Below are positions 4,965-35,670 of a stretch of DNA of 37,438 bases, in pieces. This DNA is from Holophagaceae bacterium (lineage in GTDB: Bacteria; Acidobacteriota; Holophagae; Holophagales; Holophagaceae): assembly GCA_003165415.1 (NCBI GenBank), contig PLUC01000244.1:20513-57950 (forward strand), written 5' to 3'. The translations under genes were made by a program, and so were the position numbers. Every line of letters begins with the position of its first letter. Within the stretch, counting starts at the first letter, position 1. The notes beneath the pieces are model-generated. The model worked only from the letters and a program-made list of their open reading frames with translations. It had not been told where the DNA came from and did not search any database.

Positions 4965-5067
4965 TATTTAAAATAAAGCAAGTTAATTTGTGGCCCGAAA
5001 GATGCTTGGCTTCTTGGGCCACCCCTTCGGTGTGCACGGCAGCGTTTTTTCTCGAGGAGTCAGCAAA

Positions 5068-5247
5068 ATGAAATCAAGCACGAAGGATCAGGTTGCAGGC
5101 GCTTTCCATGAACTCAAAGGCAAGGTCAAGGAGACCGCCGGCAAGGCTTCGAATAATCCTCCCTTAAAGGCTGAAGGCCAGGATGAGAAGGTCAGCGGCA
5201 AAATTCAGAAAAAGATCGGCCAAGTGGAAAAAGTCATCGGCAAATAG
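5068..5247 (+). CDS. CsbD family stress protein
   Basis: A 59-residue, lysine-rich, hydrophilic protein of the CsbD family (general-stress proteins of unknown molecular role). The core VAGAFHELKGKVKETAGKA is the usual CsbD repeat-like helix, followed by LKAEGQDEKVSGKIQKKIGQ. The ATG at 5068 was chosen because GAGGAG lies 9 bp upstream and the product then has family length; an upstream in-frame codon at 4990 would add an unrelated tail. A 5'-leader of up to about 100 nt may exist. Small CsbD proteins typically accumulate in stationary phase or osmotic stress; no regulator binding site was recognised here. Confidence 0.88.
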   Translation: MKSSTKDQVAGAFHELKGKVKETAGKASNNPPLKAEGQDEKVSGKIQKKIGQVEKVIGK

Positions 5248-5294
5248 ACAACGGCGGTCACTCAACCTCATTCATTCGCAGAGGGGACCCTGTG

Positions 5295-5813
5295 ATGATT
5301 GCGATTCTTGACGACGAGGCCTGCAGGATCGAACGCATGAAAGAGGTCCTCGCCCGCCTGTATCCCTCCCATCAGGCCGTGTTTTTTGAGACGGCGCCTG
5401 ACATGGTCGAGTGGCTGAGGGAGAATCTGACGAAGGTCATACTCTTTTCCCTGGATCATGATCTGGGGCCGAACCAGAAGCGGGATGGGCAAGTCTTCGA
5501 ACCGGGAACTGGCCAAAACATCGTTCATGTTCTTGCCCGGCATGCGCCGGTGGCTCCCGTCATCATCCACTCGACAAATGCGATAGCCGCACCAGAGATG
5601 GTCACGGAGCTGGAAGGGGCAGGCTGGACCGTGCACCGCGTGCAGCCGTATGCCGATCGGGACCTGGAATGGATTGGCGAATCATGGAAAAAGATGGTCG
5701 TGGCGTGCCTCGATGAAAAGGCCCTGCATCTCGGGGGTGCCCCAGCGAACCTGCAATCGGCCGCCCTATCGGGCTCGGACTTTGAAGGAATGCTGGGGTT
5801 GAGTCCGTTCTGA
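5295..5813 (+). CDS. Receiver-like protein (cyclic-phosphate processing receiver type)
   Basis: A 172-residue protein with a receiver-like fold: IAILDDEACRIERMKEVL supplies the acidic pair of beta-1, and LFSLDHDLG holds the candidate phospho-acceptor aspartate near residue 55. It resembles stand-alone receiver-like domains annotated as cyclic-phosphate processing receivers, associated with nucleotide or RNA end processing. A conserved HSTN follows beta-4 (about residues 92-95). No DNA-binding or enzymatic output domain is visible. A GTG precedes the ATG by one codon; I prefer the ATG because GAGGGG is then 8 bp upstream. It follows the CsbD gene by 47 bp on the same strand and may be co-transcribed. 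Fold is likely; function is not established. Confidence 0.65.
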   Translation: MIAILDDEACRIERMKEVLARLYPSHQAVFFETAPDMVEWLRENLTKVILFSLDHDLGPNQKRDGQVFEPGTGQNIVHVLARHAPVAPVIIHSTNAIAAPEMVTELEGAGWTVHRVQPYADRDLEWIGESWKKMVVACLDEKALHLGGAPANLQSAALSGSDFEGMLGLSPF

Positions 5814-6573: not shown

Positions 6574-7482
6574 CTATCCGCACCAACCCGGGGGAACCGC
6601 CACCGGCCCCAGATCCACCCGTGCCCAGCGAAACCCAGGCACCAGCTCGGCCGCCAAAACCGGTTCCGGCCGCTCCAGGCAGCCCAGGCTCCAGCCCAGC
6701 CAGCCCAGCACCTGGGCGGCGCCCACGCCCCGGTGGGCAAGCAGCGCCAGGCCCAGGGCCCCGTCCCGCTTGCCCAGCCGGGCGCCGCCGGGGGCGGTCA
6801 CCAGGCCCAGGTGGGCATAGTCCGGACGGGCCAGGCCCAGGGCTTCCTGCAGGCGGATGTGGGTGGCGGTGACGCCGCGCAGGTCGGTGCCGCGCACCAC
6901 TTCGGTCACCCCCTGGGCGCCGTCGTCCACCACCACCGCCAGATGGTAGGCATAGCAGCCGTCCCGGCGGTGCAGCAGCGGATCACCGGTGAGCCGGGCC
7001 GGATCGTCCTGCTGGGGGCCCAGCACCCGGTCCGTCCAGGCCAGGCTGCCTTCGGGCAAGCGGAAGCGCAGCGCGTCCGGGCGCAGGAACGGCAGCGGCC
7101 GGCGCCGGCAGGTCCCCGGGTAGGGCCGCAGGCCGTCCTCCCCGTGCGGGGCCGAGCCCATCAGGGCCAGGTCCTTGCGGGTGCATACGCAGGGGTACAG
7201 GCTCCCAGCCTGGAACAAGGCCTGCAGCGCTGCCTGGTAGGCCCCGTGGCGCCGGGACTGCCAGAGCACCGGGCCGTCGCTTTCCAGCCCCAGGGCCGCC
7301 AGGTCCCGCAGCTGGGCCTCGCCCAGGGTACGACCGCAGCGGGCGCCGTCCACGTCCTCCATGCGGATCAGCCAGCGCCCGCCCTGGGCCCTCGCCGAAA
7401 GCCAGGAGGCCAGGGCCGTGCGCAGGTTGCCCAGGTGCAGTTCACCGGTGGGGGAGGGCGCGAAACGGCCGATGCAGGTCAT
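6574..7482 (-). CDS. gluQRS: Glutamyl-Q tRNA(Asp) synthetase
   Basis: A 302-residue paralogue of the glutamyl-tRNA synthetase catalytic domain without an anticodon-binding domain, the hallmark of GluQRS. It attaches glutamate to the queuosine base at the wobble position of tRNA-Asp. The class I signature is RFAPSPTGELHLGNLRTAL (HLGN at about 16-19) and the KMSK-equivalent is LGKRDGA near residue 237. The zinc site CVC...YPGTC (CxC and YxxxC), typical of GluQRS, is present. The true start is ATG 7482; an upstream-extended frame overlaps the divergent gene and lacks family similarity. It is transcribed divergently from the membrane methyltransferase with only 20 bp between start codons. Confidence 0.93.
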   Translation of the reverse strand: MTCIGRFAPSPTGELHLGNLRTALASWLSARAQGGRWLIRMEDVDGARCGRTLGEAQLRDLAALGLESDGPVLWQSRRHGAYQAALQALFQAGSLYPCVCTRKDLALMGSAPHGEDGLRPYPGTCRRRPLPFLRPDALRFRLPEGSLAWTDRVLGPQQDDPARLTGDPLLHRRDGCYAYHLAVVVDDGAQGVTEVVRGTDLRGVTATHIRLQEALGLARPDYAHLGLVTAPGGARLGKRDGALGLALLAHRGVGAAQVLGWLGWSLGCLERPEPVLAAELVPGFRWARVDLGPVAVPPGWCG

Positions 7483-7502
7483 CCGTCCACTATAATGGCC
7501 GA
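7483..7502. promoter_or_regulatory. 20-bp divergent start region with TATAAT
   Basis: Only 20 bp separate the start codons of gluQRS (7482, minus) and the methyltransferase gene (7503, plus). TATAAT lies at 7491-7496, six bases before the plus-strand ATG. If it is a real -10 box, transcription would begin at or next to the A of the ATG, giving a leaderless mRNA. On the other strand the same bases read TATAGT, six bases before the gluQRS ATG. No good -35 element was found for either. Confidence 0.35.
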
Positions 7503-8252
7503 ATGCGCTCATGGCCCCCCCTCTTCCGCGCCTGCCTGGCCCAGGCCGTGGCCTTCGGCTTCCTGGCCCTGGTGCTGCGGGCCGGGCTGATGCCCCGGGC
7601 CATCCACGGCACGGGGGTGCTGGTGCTGCTGGGCACCCTGGCGGTGGGTACCGGCCGGGGCCTGGGCCTGTCACCCCGGTGGTTCCCGTTCCTGCTGGGC
7701 TTCCCCTGGGTGGTGCTGCTGTTGGTGCGCCACCCCGCCCCGGGCTGGGTCTGGCCCGTGGCCCTGGTGCTGCTGCTGGTGGTGTACGGCGGCGGAATCC
7801 TCACCCGGGTGCCCCTGTACAACTCCAACCGGGCCGCATGGGAGGCCCTGCTGGCCCTGCTGCCCCCGTATCCGGTGCGCTTCGCCGATCTCGGCGCCGG
7901 CCTGGGCGGGCCCCTGGCCTTCCTGGCCCGGGAACGCCCCGATTCCAGATTCCGCGGGGTGGAGGCCTCCCCGCTCACCTGCCTCGCCGCCTGGCTGCGC
8001 ACCCTGCCCCGCCGCGGCAACTGCCGGATCCGCTGGGGCAGCCTGTGGCGGGAGGACCTCAGCGGCTATGACGTGGTCTACGCCTTCCTGTCCCCGGCGC
8101 CCATGCCGGCCCTGTGGGCCAAGGCGGTGCGGGAAATGCGGCCGGGCAGCCTGCTGGTGAGCAACACCTTCACCGTGCCGGGGCAGGAACCCCTGCGGCG
8201 GATACCCCTGCCCGGCCGTAAGGATGCCTGTCTGCTGGTATGGAAGTTCTAG
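7503..8252 (+). CDS. Membrane-anchored class I SAM methyltransferase
   Basis: A 249-residue protein with two parts. Residues 1-105 are strongly hydrophobic with about four predicted membrane segments (for example VAFGFLALVLRAGL, VLVLLGTLAVG, FLLGFPWVVLLLV, VWPVALVLLLVVYGGG). Residues 120-249 hold a Rossmann methyltransferase with the SAM-binding motif I FADLGAGLGGPLAFLA and the acidic end of beta-2 in RGVEASP. The substrate is not evident; membrane anchoring suggests a lipid, quinone precursor or envelope protein. No ribosome binding site precedes the ATG, consistent with leaderless translation. The gene converges on the next one, their stop codons being three bases apart. Confidence 0.7.
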   Translation: MRSWPPLFRACLAQAVAFGFLALVLRAGLMPRAIHGTGVLVLLGTLAVGTGRGLGLSPRWFPFLLGFPWVVLLLVRHPAPGWVWPVALVLLLVVYGGGILTRVPLYNSNRAAWEALLALLPPYPVRFADLGAGLGGPLAFLARERPDSRFRGVEASPLTCLAAWLRTLPRRGNCRIRWGSLWREDLSGYDVVYAFLSPAPMPALWAKAVREMRPGSLLVSNTFTVPGQEPLRRIPLPGRKDACLLVWKF

Positions 8253-23847: not shown

Positions 23848-23881
23848 TATTGAGCTGAGCGTCCTGCCGGTGGAGACTTCA

Positions 23882-26785
23882 ATGGCCCCGGATTTCCCTT
23901 CTCATCACCGACTGTTTGCTTCTCTCCTGATTTCCGCCCTCCTCTTCGCCCCGGGACCTGCCTGGGCTTCCGACACCGTCCAGGCCGCCGCCAGGAAACA
24001 CCACCCCCGCCCCGCGCCCCCTCCCGCCAAGGAACTCTGGGAGACCTTCAAGGCCCCCGACCCCGCCAAGATCTTCCTGCCCTGGCCGGTGGGGGAGGCG
24101 GCCACCCACCGGCTGCTCATGGGCCTTCCGGATCTGGGCCCGGGCCACGCCTGGACCCCCACGGTCAGCGTGAAGCTCCGGGACGAAACCTGCACCAAAT
24201 GGCAGCATACCTACCAGGGGCTGCGGGTCTGGGATTCGGTGATGGCCACCCATGAAAGCCGCGGGGCCTTCCAGGCCCCGACCCCGTCCCCCGCCCTGGC
24301 CACCGGGGATGGCGGCAGGCTGTTCATGCCCGGCCTGCCCCGGGATCTCCGGTCCGACCTGGCGCCCCATACGCTGCTGGCCGGACTGCAGAAGCAACTC
24401 CACCGGGCCGAGCCCTTCGCGGCCACCAGCAAGGTGGAGCGGATCATCTACCCGGTCTATGAAACCCTCAATCTGGCCCCCCCATCCGACCCGGATGTCC
24501 CCAACGCCGCCCAGTGCCCCCGGCACGTCACCGGCTACCTGCTCGCCGACCTGGTCCAGCCCCAGCCGGAAACCGGATTCCACTACATTCTCGATGCCCA
24601 CCAGGGCGGCCTCCTGGTGACGATCCCGCGGGTGGCCGAACTGGGAGAGGCGGCCCAGGGCGTTGGCCACACGCTCTACAGCGGCACCGTGGCGCTGCCC
24701 ATGACTCGCATGCCCGACGCCACCTTCCGCCTGGAGGATCCCACCCGGGGCAACAGCCGGATCATCGACCGGGGGATCAAGGACTATGACCCCGGCACCC
24801 CCGTGCCGCCCCTCGCGGACCAACCCACCCTGGCCCATGCCACCGCGGAATGGGGCGATTCCCAGCTGGAGGGTCCGGCCACCCCGCCCGCCTCGCCCAC
24901 CGCCCAGACCATCGCCGCCGATACCATGTACGGCGTGGCCAAGATCTGGGACTTCTACGTGAACAAGGTCAACGGGCTGGGCCCCCTGGACGACCTGGAC
25001 CATGGCCTCACGGTGGACCTGCATGGTCCCTATTTCCCGGACAACACCTGCTTCCTTTTCGATTCCAGCACCATCGCCCTGGGCGCGTCGGTGCGGGCCT
25101 GGCCCAACGCCACCCTCATGCTCCTCGGCCACGAGGTCACCCACGGTTTCCTCGACAAGATGAACGCCCCACGCTACGGGCGCACGGAAGCCGGGGCGAT
25201 CAACGAAAGCGGGTGCGATTTCATGGGGATGCTCATCGACACCTGGGCGCGCACGGGCGGAGGTTCCCGCACCCCCCTGGAGGACGTCATCGGGGATGCG
25301 GACTCCACCTGGGCCCTCACCCAGATGCCGCGGGACGTCTCGGGCGGCTTCGAACCCCTGCTGAGGCGTTCCTTCTACAAGCCTTCCATGAACGGCAGGG
25401 CCTTCGACCAGTGGGCGCCCGGGTTCGACGGCAAGGACCCCCACGATACCTCCGGCCCCCTGAACCGGGCCCTGTTCTTTCTCTACCATGGGGCTTCCGC
25501 CGATCCCGAAAGCCTCTACTACTCGCCCCGGCTCCCCGAGGGCCTCGCTCCCCTGGGCAACGACCGGACCTTCGACCTCGCCCTGGGGGCCCTGATCTCC
25601 CTGGGACCCGCCGCCACCTATCTGGATGCCCGGCGGGAGATCCTCCGCCAGTCCCGGCTGCCCAGCCAGGGCGGGATCAATTCCCGGGAGAACATCGCCG
25701 TGCGCAAGGCCTTCGGTGCGGTCAACGTGGGCAATCCCAACGCCACGGACGACGGCTTCGATCTCACCGGCAGCCTGCGCTCCACCGCCGAACTGAGGGG
25801 CCGGCAGCTGGTGCTCACGGCCACCGTCGCGGAGGTCCCCGACGTGCGCAGCGTCGTGTTCAAGGTGGACGGGCTGATGGTGGCCAGGCTGGCCCGCCCG
25901 CCGTACGTCCTCACCCTCGATCCCGGCCGCTGGTTCACCCAGGGCGCCCACACCTTCCAGGCCATCCTCGCCAATGAGGTCGGCCAGGTCCTGGACGGGC
26001 CGACGGTCCCCTTCACCCTCCCGCCCATGGCCTATGAGCAGATCCTGCAGGATCCCGGCCTGGAGAACACCGACCCCCTGGCGGCGAAATGGATCCAGAA
26101 TTTCGCCCCCGGTCCCGGGATTCCCCAGGTGCTCCAGGACCGGTCGGGCCGCCTTCCCGGCGCCCATGGCGGCAACCGCTGCGCCGTCTTTGATGCCGCC
26201 GCGGGCCCCATCACCTTGTTCCAGCGGGTGACCTTCCCGGCCGACAAGAACACCTCCGAACTCAGCTTCTGGATTTGGAGCCGGCCCGATCCCAAACATC
26301 CGGACAGTTCCCTGACCGTCAAGCTACTGGATGACCGGACCGGGGTTCCCCTGAGGACCTTGGCCACCTTCGACCGACGTAATGGCCGTCCGGATTGGGT
26401 GCGCACCGTCCTGCCCCTGGGTGGCATGCAGGGCCGGACGGTGGACCTGGCGTTCATCGCCTGGATCCCCTCCACCAGCGCCGCCCTCTTCCTGGTGGAT
26501 GACATCAATCTCGATGCCTACGGGACCGTGCCCTTGCCCGCCGTGTCCGTGCTCCCCAAGCGGGTGGACCTGGCGCCGGGGGCGTCCTTCCATTTCAGGG
26601 TCTCCTTCACCCGCCCCGCCGGCCAGGCCCTGGTCTGGAGCCTCCGGGAACCCGGCGGAACCCAGAACATGGAGAACCAGACCTGTACGCCTCCGGCCGC
26701 GCCGGGCTTCTACCACCTGGTGGCCACCAGCGTAGCCGATCCCCAGGATTTCGATGAAATTTCAATCCACGTTGGGACCCCGTGA
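23882..26785 (+). CDS. Secreted M4 (thermolysin-like) metallopeptidase with C-terminal beta modules
   Basis: A 967-residue exported zinc protease. A signal peptide (LFASLLISALLFAPGPAWA) is followed by a fungalysin/thermolysin propeptide with HTYQGLRVWDS. The catalytic domain has LGHEVTHGFLDK (zinc histidines and catalytic glutamate, near residue 417), the third ligand in EAGAINESGCDF about 25 residues later, and PHDTSGPLNRALFFL with the transition-state histidine, so all active-site residues are present. From about residue 620 several beta-sandwich modules follow (an Ig-like domain at FKVDGLMVARL, a carbohydrate-binding-like module, and a final Ig-like module with VWSLREPGGT), roughly doubling the usual length. 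ATG 23882 is preferred over a GTG at 23870 because GGAG lies eight bases upstream. It probably degrades extracellular protein. Confidence 0.9.
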   Translation: MAPDFPSHHRLFASLLISALLFAPGPAWASDTVQAAARKHHPRPAPPPAKELWETFKAPDPAKIFLPWPVGEAATHRLLMGLPDLGPGHAWTPTVSVKLRDETCTKWQHTYQGLRVWDSVMATHESRGAFQAPTPSPALATGDGGRLFMPGLPRDLRSDLAPHTLLAGLQKQLHRAEPFAATSKVERIIYPVYETLNLAPPSDPDVPNAAQCPRHVTGYLLADLVQPQPETGFHYILDAHQGGLLVTIPRVAELGEAAQGVGHTLYSGTVALPMTRMPDATFRLEDPTRGNSRIIDRGIKDYDPGTPVPPLADQPTLAHATAEWGDSQLEGPATPPASPTAQTIAADTMYGVAKIWDFYVNKVNGLGPLDDLDHGLTVDLHGPYFPDNTCFLFDSSTIALGASVRAWPNATLMLLGHEVTHGFLDKMNAPRYGRTEAGAINESGCDFMGMLIDTWARTGGGSRTPLEDVIGDADSTWALTQMPRDVSGGFEPLLRRSFYKPSMNGRAFDQWAPGFDGKDPHDTSGPLNRALFFLYHGASADPESLYYSPRLPEGLAPLGNDRTFDLALGALISLGPAATYLDARREILRQSRLPSQGGINSRENIAVRKAFGAVNVGNPNATDDGFDLTGSLRSTAELRGRQLVLTATVAEVPDVRSVVFKVDGLMVARLARPPYVLTLDPGRWFTQGAHTFQAILANEVGQVLDGPTVPFTLPPMAYEQILQDPGLENTDPLAAKWIQNFAPGPGIPQVLQDRSGRLPGAHGGNRCAVFDAAAGPITLFQRVTFPADKNTSELSFWIWSRPDPKHPDSSLTVKLLDDRTGVPLRTLATFDRRNGRPDWVRTVLPLGGMQGRTVDLAFIAWIPSTSAALFLVDDINLDAYGTVPLPAVSVLPKRVDLAPGASFHFRVSFTRPAGQALVWSLREPGGTQNMENQTCTPPAAPGFYHLVATSVADPQDFDEISIHVGTP

Positions 26786-31555: not shown

Positions 31556-32761
31556 TTACTTGACCGTGAAGTACTTCTCCGGAATCTTCAGGCTGGTGGT
31601 GCCCATGTAGCCCCGGCCGAAGATGTAGGTGTCCATGTACAGCAGGAAATAGTTCTTCACCCGGACCCCGGTGCCCCGGTCGGTGTAGTAGGACCCGTTC
31701 CAGCTGGCGTTGGGGCTGTACTTGCCAAGGGCGTCGAAGATGTCCTTGGGGTTGTTCAGCTTGGCCTTGCCTTCGACCACGCGCTTGCCCAGTTCGCCCA
31801 GGCCGGCGACGAAGGAATAGTTGGAGCTGTAGGCCCAGTCGCCCATGCGGCCGCCGGCGCCCCTGGCGACGACCCCCGCCTCGATCTTCTTCATGATGGC
31901 GGGCCAGTTGCCCCGTTCGGCATAGAGGTTGAGCCCCAGCGCGCCCGGATAGCCCAGCAGCGGGGAGGCCGAGCCCGGCTCCACGAAGATGGCGTTCTTG
32001 CTGGCCGCGACGCACTTGATGACCGGCTCGGCCTGGGCGTCGTTGGTGCAGAAGAAGGCCACCGGCTCGTGGTTCGGGCCGCCGAACTGCTCGATCCACT
32101 GCGGCATCTTCTCCAGGAGGAACTGCTGGGCCCCGGCCACCCCGGCATCGGAGGTGGGATCGGGAGCGCTCATGTAGACGAACTTCATCCCCAGGTCCTT
32201 GCAGGCCTGCTCCATGACCGCCCGCCGGCGGCCGAAGCTCTCCAGGGACATGTGCCGGGGGAAGGAGATGTGGACGAAGGTCTTGGCGCCCAGCTTCTTG
32301 GCCGACCAGGGGATGGTGTAGCCGCGGGAGACGAAGTCGATGTCCAGCACCAGGTCGGACACCTTGGCGTCGATCAGGGGATCCTCCAGCGGGATGGCGC
32401 CCAGCAGCAGGATGTCGGGACGTTTGGCCCGGATCCGCTTGTAGGCTTCCCCGGTGCCCGGGAACATGTTGTTGGTGACGATGACCTTCATCAGCGGATC
32501 TTCGGTCAGGGCCACCAGGTTGCTGATCAGGGTCTCCTGCTGGGACATGAAATCATCCGGGACGACCACCTTGATGATCATGCCGCCGTTGGCGACGGTG
32601 CCGTATTCCTTCATGAGCTGCTCGACGGCCCGGGTGCTGTCCTCGCCCTGGGCCACCGAGGCGGTGCACACGGCGATGTGGAACTTGGCCGGCTGGGCGA
32701 AGACCGCGCCGGAAAGGAGCAATGCGAGGGCCGCGGCCGTCGCCTTGGGGTGGAATCGCAT
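31556..32761 (-). CDS. DUF3798 periplasmic solute-binding protein
   Basis: A 401-residue exported protein with the signal peptide ATAAALALLLSGAVFA. The mature part matches the DUF3798 family, a periplasmic-binding-protein-like group of unknown ligand: FHIAVCTASVAQGEDSTRAV, PDDFMSQQETLISNLVALTE, FVHISFPRHMSLESFGRRRA, APDPTSDAGVAGAQQFLLEK, AFFCTNDAQAEPVIK and WNGSYYTDRGTGVRVKNYFL. Family members often sit beside ABC transporter genes; none is present here. Instead it converges on the permease-ggt-racemase operon. GGAGG lies five bases before ATG 32761. An orphan binding protein could serve a distant transporter, a sensor kinase, or the adjacent permease. Confidence 0.88.
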   Translation of the reverse strand: MRFHPKATAAALALLLSGAVFAQPAKFHIAVCTASVAQGEDSTRAVEQLMKEYGTVANGGMIIKVVVPDDFMSQQETLISNLVALTEDPLMKVIVTNNMFPGTGEAYKRIRAKRPDILLLGAIPLEDPLIDAKVSDLVLDIDFVSRGYTIPWSAKKLGAKTFVHISFPRHMSLESFGRRRAVMEQACKDLGMKFVYMSAPDPTSDAGVAGAQQFLLEKMPQWIEQFGGPNHEPVAFFCTNDAQAEPVIKCVAASKNAIFVEPGSASPLLGYPGALGLNLYAERGNWPAIMKKIEAGVVARGAGGRMGDWAYSSNYSFVAGLGELGKRVVEGKAKLNNPKDIFDALGKYSPNASWNGSYYTDRGTGVRVKNYFLLYMDTYIFGRGYMGTTSLKIPEKYFTVK

Positions 32762-32826: not shown

Positions 32827-32863
32827 TGATGGGCTACCCAGTTGTTGGCATGATGGGTAACCC
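32827..32863. promoter_or_regulatory. Direct repeats upstream of the DUF3798 gene
   Basis: TGATGGGCTACCC (32827-32839) and TGATGGGTAACCC (32851-32863) are direct repeats with a 24-bp period, 66-102 bp upstream of the start codon. Each contains a near-palindromic GGGTNRCCC core. The spacing of about two helical turns suggests cooperative binding of a regulator. Confidence 0.45.
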
Positions 32864-32893
32864 TATCACGAGCGGGAGGAGTCGGTTCCTGGA

Positions 32894-33402
32894 TCACATC
32901 CGCATGGCGGCATGGATGCGGATCACGAGTTCATCCATCATGAATGGCTTGGACAGCAGAGAGACCCTGGGGAAGGCTTCCAGGAGGCCCAGGACAGTTT
33001 GAGCGACAGCAGCACAGGCCGCTGGGCCTTGTTCCGGGTCAGCAGGCAGACCTCGATACTGCTGGCGGTTTTTCCGGCAAGCAGGGCGACCACCCGGAAA
33101 CGGTCCTTGGTCGCCACCCAGTCGAGCAGCAGGCTGCCCCGCAGCTGGTCGATGGTCATGTCCAGCATGGACGCCACGCAGGCGTTGCCGTTGAGGATGC
33201 GCCCCAAGGCGTCGAGGGTCAGGCCGCCTTCCTTCATCGCCTCGAAAAACACCTGGTAGGGTTTTTCGGCCCCAGCCAGGCTGATCACGCCTTTCGAGCC
33301 GACCAGGGCATCCGCCTCGCCCTCCCGCAGGGCGTTAAGGGCATCCTGCGCCTCGGCAAGGCGGGTCCGAAGCTCCTCCACTTCACTCCACGCGGTGTCC
33401 AT
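32894..33402 (-). pseudogene. PAS hybrid kinase pseudogene, middle deleted
   Basis: From ATG 33402 the frame encodes a coiled-coil start (EELRTRLAEAQDALNALREG) and a PAS domain (EKPYQVFFEAMKEGGLTLDA, GRILNGNACVASMLDM) up to QRPVLLSLK. Near position 33000 it breaks. In another frame, VLGLLEAFPRVSLLSKPFMM and DELVIRIHAAMRM encode the last strand and helix of a receiver domain and end at 32894. Histidine kinase dimerisation and ATPase domains and most of the receiver are absent. The gene thus keeps its first ~135 and last ~35 codons. It follows kaiB by eight bases, the usual order for KaiC-KaiB-hybrid kinase operons. Confidence 0.8.
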
Positions 33403-33410
33403 AGGCCCTT

Positions 33411-33509
33411 TCAGTTCGACTTCGACTTCAGCTGCAGGCCGACCAGCGTCTTCTCGGTATCGGACAGATCGCCGGGCTTCGGTTCATGATCGGGAGGTTC
33501 AGGGCTCAT
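33411..33509 (-). pseudogene. kaiB: kaiB pseudogene, reduced to its two ends
   Basis: A 32-codon frame from ATG 33509 reads MSPEPPDHEPK and then PGDLSDTEKTLVGLQLKSKS. The second part is the conserved C-terminal signature of KaiB (GDLSDTExVLVGLxL), whereas the first part resembles the N-terminal tail of longer KaiB-like proteins. The thioredoxin-like domain of about 60-75 residues between them is gone. The frame is intact across the junction. It cannot fold as KaiB. It lies between kaiC and hybrid kinase remnants with only eight bases on either side. Confidence 0.8.
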
Positions 33510-33517
33510 GGAGGCTT

Positions 33518-33896
33518 TCACGAGGCCTCCCCGCCTTGGATGATCCGGCCGCGGCGCGTGGCCAGATCGCCGAAGGTGATCTCGGTGGAGCGCAGGAGCG
33601 CGGCCTCGCCTTCCAGTTCCACTTCGAGGGTATGGAGTTCTTCCTCGTACTCCTCCCGGATCGCGGGGGGTTTCCTCGAAACTGACGAAGATGCCCGGCT
33701 CGTCGTAAAGTTCGACGCCATGCAGGATGAACTCCATCGCGAACAGGGTTTTCCCGGAACCTGCCGAGCCGGCGACCAGCGTTGGCCGGCCCCTGGGCAA
33801 CCCCCCTTCGGAAAGCTCATCAAAACCGATGATGCCGGTGGGACACTTTTCAAGTACGGCAGGTGAGACCACATTGGGTCTAGGGCGAAGCCTCAA
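33518..33896 (-). pseudogene. kaiC: kaiC pseudogene, middle deleted and frameshifted
   Basis: The 5' part encodes the KaiC N-terminus: LEKCPTGIIGFDELSEGGLP, the Walker A loop AGSAGSGKTLFAMEF, and YDEPGIFVSFEETP. It then shifts frame in a run of C residues (about 33666-33672) and continues with IREEYEEELHTLEVELEGEA and TFGDLATRRGRIIQGGEAS, the C-terminal coiled-coil tail seen in KaiC-like proteins. Walker B, the catalytic glutamates and the whole second ATPase domain are missing. A normal KaiC-like protein has roughly 450-580 residues; about 110 remain. KaiC ATPases in non-photosynthetic bacteria act with KaiB and hybrid kinases in stress or timing control. No good ribosome binding site was found for the TTG or GTG start choices. 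Confidence 0.82.
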
Positions 33897-34146: not shown

Positions 34147-35670
34147 ATGACACGGGAAACCGAAGACCGAATCCGCCATTCAGGTCTGCGCGACCGGATC
34201 GTATCCGCCGAGGAGGCGGCTTTGCGCATCAAGAGCGGCTACCGGGTGGGCATGAGCGGGTTCACCGGCTCCGGCTATCCCAAGCAGGTGCCCCGGGCCC
34301 TGGCCGAGCACATCCTCCGGGAACACAGCGCCGGCCGGCGCTTCCGCATCTCGGTCATGACCGGGGCCTCCACCAGCAGCGAGCTGGACGGAGCCCTGGC
34401 CATGGTGGATGGCATCGAGCTGCGCATGCCCTACAACTCCGACCCCACCGCCCGGGAGAAGATCAACACCGGCAAGATGGAGTACTTCGACTTCCACCTG
34501 GGCTCCGTGGCCCAGTACGTGAAGTCCGGGTTCTTCGGCGAAATCGACGTGGCCATCGTGGAGGTGACCGGGATCACCGAGGACGGCCGGCTGATCCCGT
34601 CCACCTCCGTGGGCAACAATCAGGTGTTCATCGATTCGGCCCGGGAAGTGATCCTGGAAGTGAATCACTACCAGCCCATGGAGCTGGAGGGCATGCACGA
34701 CGTGTTCGAGCCGCCCATGCCACCCTATCGCCAGCCGATCATGATCACCAAGGTGTCCGACCGCATCGGCACGCCCTACCTCATCTGCCCCGCCGACAAG
34801 ATCAAGGCCATCGTGGAGACCAACAGCCCGGACCGGGCCACCGTGTTCAAGGACGTGGACCCCGATTCCCAGGCCATCTCCCGGCACATTCTCGACTTCT
34901 TCCAGCGGGAGGTGGCCCAGGGACGCCTGCCCAAGAGCCTGCTCCCGCTCCAGTCCGGGGTGGGCAACGTGGCCAATGCGGTGCTCTACGGCCTGCTGGA
35001 TTCCCCCTTCGAGAACCTGGAGGTCTACACCGAAGTGATCCAGGACGGCATGCTCGCCCTCATCGATTCCGGCAAGGTCAGCTATGCCTCGGCCACCGCC
35101 TTTTCGGTTTCCCCGGCCATGGTGGAGCAGTTCAAGGCCAACGTCGGGCTCTACAAAGACCGGATCATCCTGCGGCCCCAGTCCATCAGCAACCACGTGG
35201 AGGTGATCAAGCGGCTGGGGGTGCTGGCCATGAACGGCTGCGTGGAATTCGACCTCTACGGCAACGTCAATTCCACTCATATCAACGGCACCCGCATCAT
35301 CAACGGCATCGGCGGCTCGGGCGACTTCGCCCGGAATTCCTTCATCAGCATCTTCACCACCCCATCCACCGCCGGCAAGCACGGCGAGATCTCCTGCGTG
35401 GTGCCCATGGTCTCCCACGTGGACCACTGCGAGCACGACGTGGACATCCTGGTGACCGAGCAGGGCCTGGCTGACCTGCGCGGCACCTCGCCCAAGCAGC
35501 GGGCGGAGAAGATCATCGAGCAGTGCGTCCACCCGGACTACCGCAAGCAGTTGCGGGAGTACTACCGCTACGCCCTGCAGGTCTCCCCGGGCAAGCACAC
35601 GCCGCACATCCTGGAGGAGGCCCTGGGCTGGCACAGCCGGTTCCAGCGGACCGGGACCATGCGCGCCTGA
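34147..35670 (+). CDS. Acetyl-CoA hydrolase/succinate CoA-transferase
   Basis: A 507-residue class I CoA-transferase of the Cat1/AarC type, moving CoA between acetate and succinate in the cytosol. The N-terminus RIVSAEEAALRIKSGYRVGM and GFTGSGYPKQVPRAL match the family. The catalytic glutamate that forms the CoA thioester is E296 in EVYTEVIQDG, and INGIGGSGDFARN is the glycine-rich oxyanion loop near residue 390. Length is complete. ATG 34147 is preceded by AGGAGG; a 38-codon in-frame extension from 34033 is possible but overlaps promoter elements. This activity is used in acetate metabolism and incomplete TCA variants. It is flanked by relic genes yet looks fully functional. Confidence 0.92.
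   Translation: MTRETEDRIRHSGLRDRIVSAEEAALRIKSGYRVGMSGFTGSGYPKQVPRALAEHILREHSAGRRFRISVMTGASTSSELDGALAMVDGIELRMPYNSDPTAREKINTGKMEYFDFHLGSVAQYVKSGFFGEIDVAIVEVTGITEDGRLIPSTSVGNNQVFIDSAREVILEVNHYQPMELEGMHDVFEPPMPPYRQPIMITKVSDRIGTPYLICPADKIKAIVETNSPDRATVFKDVDPDSQAISRHILDFFQREVAQGRLPKSLLPLQSGVGNVANAVLYGLLDSPFENLEVYTEVIQDGMLALIDSGKVSYASATAFSVSPAMVEQFKANVGLYKDRIILRPQSISNHVEVIKRLGVLAMNGCVEFDLYGNVNSTHINGTRIINGIGGSGDFARNSFISIFTTPSTAGKHGEISCVVPMVSHVDHCEHDVDILVTEQGLADLRGTSPKQRAEKIIEQCVHPDYRKQLREYYRYALQVSPGKHTPHILEEALGWHSRFQRTGTMRA

Follow-up and report, generated by a model that had tools for sequence, protein, structure and literature searches.

Fragments of a kaiC-kaiB-PAS gene operon in a Holophagaceae genome, a likely pseudogene cluster

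Bacterial pseudogenes are described as shrinking under deletional bias (PMC2916853, PMC5447742). Intact operons with the gene order kaiC, kaiB and a PAS gene were found in proteobacterial metagenome-assembled genomes, at four loci (L049, L050, L052 and L053), and the pieces of the relic described in this work stand in the same order. The KaiB-linked PAS gene keeps its N-terminus (L050, L052, L053 and L160) and its output domains, GGDEF-EAL or a kinase with receiver, are exchangeable. PAS-GGDEF-EAL is encoded in L050 and L053 and PAS-HisKA-HATPase-receiver in L052, and a KaiB-linked gene of genome G017 (1,495 aa) comprises many PAS, GAF, kinase and receiver domains and ends in a receiver. We consider it likely that the relic is a pseudogene cluster, namely an imported kaiC-kaiB-PAS gene operon decaying by ordinary deletion. 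It is known from one genome of the species, as assembled sequence alone.

Layout of the locus and its kaiC and kaiB remnants

The window, i.e., the whole stretch of 37,438 nucleotides analyzed here, is part of contig C194 (57,950 bases) of a Holophagaceae assembly of 273 contigs (G000; completeness 94.19, contamination 7.38), which was compared with five other genomes of its genus. The relic, at 33,872-32,894 on the minus strand, consists of coding pieces in three frames in the order KaiC N-terminus, KaiC tail, kaiB end, PAS part and receiver tail. It is flanked by a DUF3798 gene (31,556-32,761) and a divergent acetyl-CoA hydrolase/transferase gene (34,147-35,670; both names from Pfam). Two similar TGATGGG..ACCC direct repeats, perhaps an operator, were seen by eye upstream of the DUF3798 gene (32,829-32,870). 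Elsewhere in the window, a divergent gene pair has about 20 bp between its starts (7,482-7,503), where genome G004 is apparently about 450 nt longer. The features of the relic are the following:

33667-33872, minus strand: kaiC N-terminal piece with Walker A (PF06745, E 4.1e-23), proposed GTG start at 33872
33664-33668, minus strand: junction 1, about 1,304 nt absent compared with L053, frameshift, overlap of 0-1 nt
33518-33665, minus strand: kaiC C-terminal coiled tail and stop codon (52% over 42 aa, L053 tail)
33474-33509, minus strand: presumed kaiB start and first codons, ATG 8 nt past the kaiC stop
33411-33473, minus strand: kaiB C-terminal residues and stop (89% over 19 aa, L053), with junction 2 just upstream
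33003-33402, minus strand: N-terminal coil and PAS part of the post-kaiB gene (56-57% over 128-129 aa, L053)
33001-33003, minus strand: junction 3 between PAS gene and receiver tail, frameshift
32894-33001, minus strand: receiver-domain tail and stop (61% over 31 aa, G004), of the own-family hybrid-kinase type

A first-pass annotation had described three adjacent genes which each retain both ends and lack the middle. A loss of interior sequence is supported for kaiC and kaiB, with about 1.3 kb and 0.22 kb missing, and is doubtful for the third gene. The KaiC N-terminal piece covers positions 1-62 of the 231 of the PF06745 profile and is 79% identical to L046 (residues 10-77) and 84% to L050 (residues 15-75); the coiled tail lies in a different frame. 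Walker A and coiled-coil tail were thereby confirmed as annotated, and complete KaiC ATPase domain(s) are absent. Likewise no complete KaiB chain is present (107 aa in L053). Of the approximately 11 plus 20 kaiB codons proposed, the C-terminal ones stand, with about 19 recognizable from GDLSD onward, and the N-terminal 11 cannot be verified by homology: They precede the conserved LRLY block in a stretch that varies among the seven relatives shown, and the one support for them is the ATG after the kaiC stop. Since the codons before GDLSD fall in the unconserved start of kaiB, the left edge of junction 2 cannot be fixed, and the loss of about 0.22 kb compared with L053 applies if ATG 33,509 is the kaiB start.

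Both spacers of the relic (kaiC-kaiB and kaiB-PAS gene) measure 8 nt, as had been annotated. Between kaiC and kaiB the spacing in relatives ranges from -4 to +15 in the clearer cases. From kaiB to the next gene it is 6, 6, 7, 7, and 8 nt in L050, L052, L049, L053, and L043 (start codons set by eye), and as the window agrees with these five relatives, the kaiB-PAS boundary is well preserved. No complete domain is left in the relic, possibly with the exception of the PAS fold.

Relatives of the relic and its probable import

In a contig scan with the KaiC N-terminal piece the best 80 of 184 confirmed relatives were kept, and a rough script counted a kaiB-like frame at 55 of these 80 loci. The top five of the 80 are metagenome-assembled genomes (MAGs) labeled Sulfuritalea (79%), beta-proteobacterium (72%), Azonexus (75%), gammaproteobacterium (79%), and Rhodospirillaceae (84% over 61 aa). 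Among the 36 other genomes of the own family the best match, the relic aside, reaches 49%, and the best among 60 genomes, again without the relic, is 57% in G058, a member of another family. Because the piece is 79% identical to L046 and 84% to L050 and at most 49% to sequences of its own family, an import of the operon from another bacterial group, best matched in proteobacterial MAGs, appears likely, as judged from the identities of short pieces.

A close copy of the relic was sought in the five other genus genomes and not found; comparison of the whole relic DNA with other genomes yielded pieces of at most 46 nt, and the KaiC and PAS matches from plasmid searches were more distant. The GC3 of five relic pieces is 0.71-0.86, compared with 0.91-0.94 in six resident genes, which could instead reflect drift after inactivation. 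From six relatives the KaiC N-terminal piece differs at 11-14 of 57 aa, which exceeds the difference in most pairs among the relatives (2-13); this comparison was made without L050 and L053, whose matches did not span the whole piece, and point decay of the piece can be ruled neither in nor out by it. The DUF3798 neighbor was found in none of the five other genus genomes, so that an empty site was not placed by synteny. Inspection by eye of the surroundings of three DUF3798 paralogues of this genome revealed a transposase, a chemoreceptor-like gene and a permease-like gene, and no hybrid kinase.

PAS part, receiver tail and the junctions

The N-terminal coil and PAS region directly after kaiB are present in the relic as in L053, with 57% identity over 129 aa; Pfam PAS matches were sub-threshold only. 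Among 76 other genomes of the own family the PAS piece was matched in three, with 33-44% identity and in frames of 280-1,495 aa, and the best of these matches (44%, in G017) is preceded by a kaiB. It is hardly conceivable that the fragments are functional short proteins. Two open frames, of 161 and 154 codons, would fit such proteins, yet both leave the family frame after a junction, and none of the three matches to the PAS piece is a short copy. For the PAS piece, the conserved short homologues which the first-pass annotation had named as counterevidence to a loss of gene interiors were not encountered in these 76 genomes.

While the PAS part of the annotated PAS kinase was confirmed, its final receiver helix probably does not belong to it. 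With an E limit of 0.1 the receiver tail (33 aa) was matched in 38 of 77 family genomes and, as 35 aa and with a limit of 0.01, in four of 199 phylum genomes, all of the own family; both counts include the own genome. E values to own-family kinases lie between 1e-7 and 3e-3, and across 61 bp the DNA of the tail shares 79% identity with the end of the gene for a 901-aa hybrid kinase on contig C98 of the same genome. Three weak matches (15-19 aa, E 0.06-0.4) were obtained at the best 80 of 184 KaiC loci, of which 42 show a complete long frame after the kaiB-like frame according to a rough script. The comparison of KaiC loci with own-family kinases is biased, as the own-family matches were found by searching with the tail itself. 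The PAS part stops near 33,003, and the tail starts at 33,001 in a different frame. As the tail resembles own-family kinases and is matched weakly at three of the 80 KaiC loci, it is more likely that two genes meet at junction 3, or that the imported segment ends there, and judged by these similarities the tail probably derives from a separate, resident-type kinase gene rather than from the PAS gene.

The alternative, three intragenic deletions in an operon whose KaiB-linked gene was a hybrid kinase already ending in the relic's receiver tail, is possible, if rather unlikely. The exchangeable outputs of the post-kaiB genes (L050, L053, L052, and G017) and the preserved kaiB-PAS spacing agree with it, and two KaiB-linked genes (L052 and G017) indeed have a receiver at their end, which leaves some probability to a single hybrid kinase. 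These two receiver ends, however, do not resemble the relic's tail, which matches resident kinases instead, and the scarcity of matches at the KaiC loci (about 42 with a complete following gene) also speaks against this alternative. Three independent deletions within genes, as originally annotated, are therefore doubtful, and of the gene boundaries said to be spared the kaiC stop, the kaiB stop and the PAS-gene start are kept, whereas junction 3 more likely crosses genes.

By comparison with full-length operons, which had been recommended for locating the junctions and their microhomology, the junctions were located approximately, and the overlap could be set for junction 1 only. Here 1,304 nt are missing relative to L053 (5,182-6,485 of L053) and the frame is shifted; the overlap is 0-1 nt when both sides are compared with relatives, not with the true ancestor, and the junction is nearly blunt. 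Frame shifts at two of the three junctions (1 and 3) led to disrupted frames. The supposed unusualness of three deletions within genes was gauged with a modeled operon, on which three non-overlapping deletions of observed or assumed sizes were placed at random, with an assumed length of the third gene. Of the accepted placements, 5-11% had every deletion inside a gene and 2-4% affected three different genes. When the kaiC and kaiB deletions alone were placed, 13-31% of placements were inside genes, and all of these figures have to be seen in light of the fact that the pattern was noticed because gene ends survived.

A single complex event, in which replication template switching made all junctions together, is quite improbable. 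Three junctions lie within 0.7 kb, junction 1 is nearly blunt, and Ku was detected in none of six genus genomes by a search with one Pfam family (a control search found Ku in one of 14 named genomes), which makes classical end joining unlikely. However, nothing puts the junctions in an order of time, a series of deletions accounts for them just as well, and the overlap at junctions 2 and 3 is not fixable.

According to the decay reading, a kaiC-kaiB-PAS gene operon would have entered the lineage, would not have been kept by selection and would have shrunk by illegitimate deletions into what is presumably a nonfunctional remnant. One deletion may have taken about 1.3 kb from kaiC and shifted its frame, and another about 0.22 kb from kaiB. 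The third junction would represent either a deletion that spanned two genes or the limit of the imported DNA, by which the PAS gene was joined to the end of a resident-type kinase, with the last 35 codons as the share of the hybrid kinase.

Assembly, further genes without a middle and known systems

An assembly artefact, in which pieces were joined and the intervening sequence was lost, is improbable. Outside the window, 635 kb of this genome contain 19 gaps of exactly NN, one of which hides about 122 nt. The NN of contig C194 (L157 9151-9152) breaks a frame, with a frame change across the gap, in a gene which we take to be a lysyl-tRNA synthetase; moreover, a second gene without its middle lies on the same contig and the given contamination value fits an artefact. 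Other N runs in these 635 kb measure 24 and 64, in addition to three stretches of 2.7-2.9 kb that are wholly N. No NN was present in 1.2 Mb of G001, G002, and G004, of which G004 has two long N runs. At several other NNs the alignment to a homologue continues without a break, so the losses at such gaps may mostly be small. Against an artefact, the gaps seen elsewhere are marked by Ns, of which the window contains none, so an unmarked triple misjoin is unlikely; the overlap at junction 1, as judged from relatives, is too short for a join by read overlap, and a partial survey revealed no clear unmarked gene with a lost middle beyond the relic.

Two further genes without their middles were found. 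The first, a metallopeptidase gene at 20,010-19,115 (minus strand), has an N-terminal part (propeptide motif PF07504) and a C-terminal part (PF02868, Peptidase_M4_C) in two frames, which match residues 82-199 (30%) and 497-593 (40%) of an intact M4-type gene at 23,870-26,785; about 300 residues are missing. The second, presumably a transposase-like gene, on contig C192 (L150 = G000 C192:36000-48000, 5021-5725), lacks about 137 residues in frame compared with a G004 gene. It adjoins a DUF3798 paralogue.

A first homology survey yielded five, one and zero candidates in G000, G004, and G001, respectively, and the five of G000 included the transposase, the metallopeptidase and the kaiC relic. Two more candidates of this survey are a probable antisense frame at 7.5 kb of the window and one that sits beside an NN gap. 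With a stricter survey, four candidates were obtained from G000 (673 kb, of which homologues cover 173 kb), five from G004 (432 kb, 137 kb covered), and none from G001 (380 kb, 102 kb covered) or G002 (400 kb, 136 kb covered). Apart from the kaiC relic these look, by eye, like differences in multi-domain architecture. The stricter survey reached about a quarter of the bases examined in G000. Its queries excluded those of the same stretch and those with a low coding score, which made it blind to the metallopeptidase; the transposase was not listed. In a codon-usage scan aimed at frame switches, irregular ends numbered 42 for G000 (390 kb), 11 for G004 (200 kb), and 19 for G001 (200 kb). Within the relic, junction 3 alone was flagged, and as junction 1 and the metallopeptidase escaped it, the scan decides nothing.

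A general deletion process acting inside genes, which had also been suggested, was not seen in the partial survey, though two further genes with lost middles were found, and a genome-wide process is neither demonstrated nor excluded by it. It is very improbable that a bacterium in which Ku was not detected loses the interiors of unused genes in bursts by nearly blunt template switching with several junctions and retains the ends as scars. Examples of such bursts would be the kaiC-kaiB relic, the C192 transposase and the metallopeptidase at 19.1-20.0 kb, and if true, this reading would be relevant to the question of how unused genes are erased in bacteria.

Under the preferred reading of a decaying imported operon, a clock-gene operon apparently reached this lineage and was then not kept. 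The locus also calls for caution: A receiver tail beside a PAS fragment was read as one kinase, and the nearest relatives found are other genes.

With the intact operons (L049, L050, L052, and L053) the relic shares the order, the KaiC ends, the kaiB C-terminus, the PAS N-terminus and the kaiB-PAS spacing; unlike them, it has lost the interior parts of kaiC and kaiB, and its PAS gene is left without output domains. The receiver-domain tail is common to the relic and hybrid histidine kinases of its own family (G000 C98, 901 aa; G004 C1:119184), of which, however, only the last 35 codons are present in the window. Like the pseudogenes portrayed as shrinking under deletional bias (PMC2916853, PMC5447742), the relic displays deletions in genes without evident selection, and it differs from what is portrayed there by three junctions within 1 kb and by several gene ends that are still recognizable.
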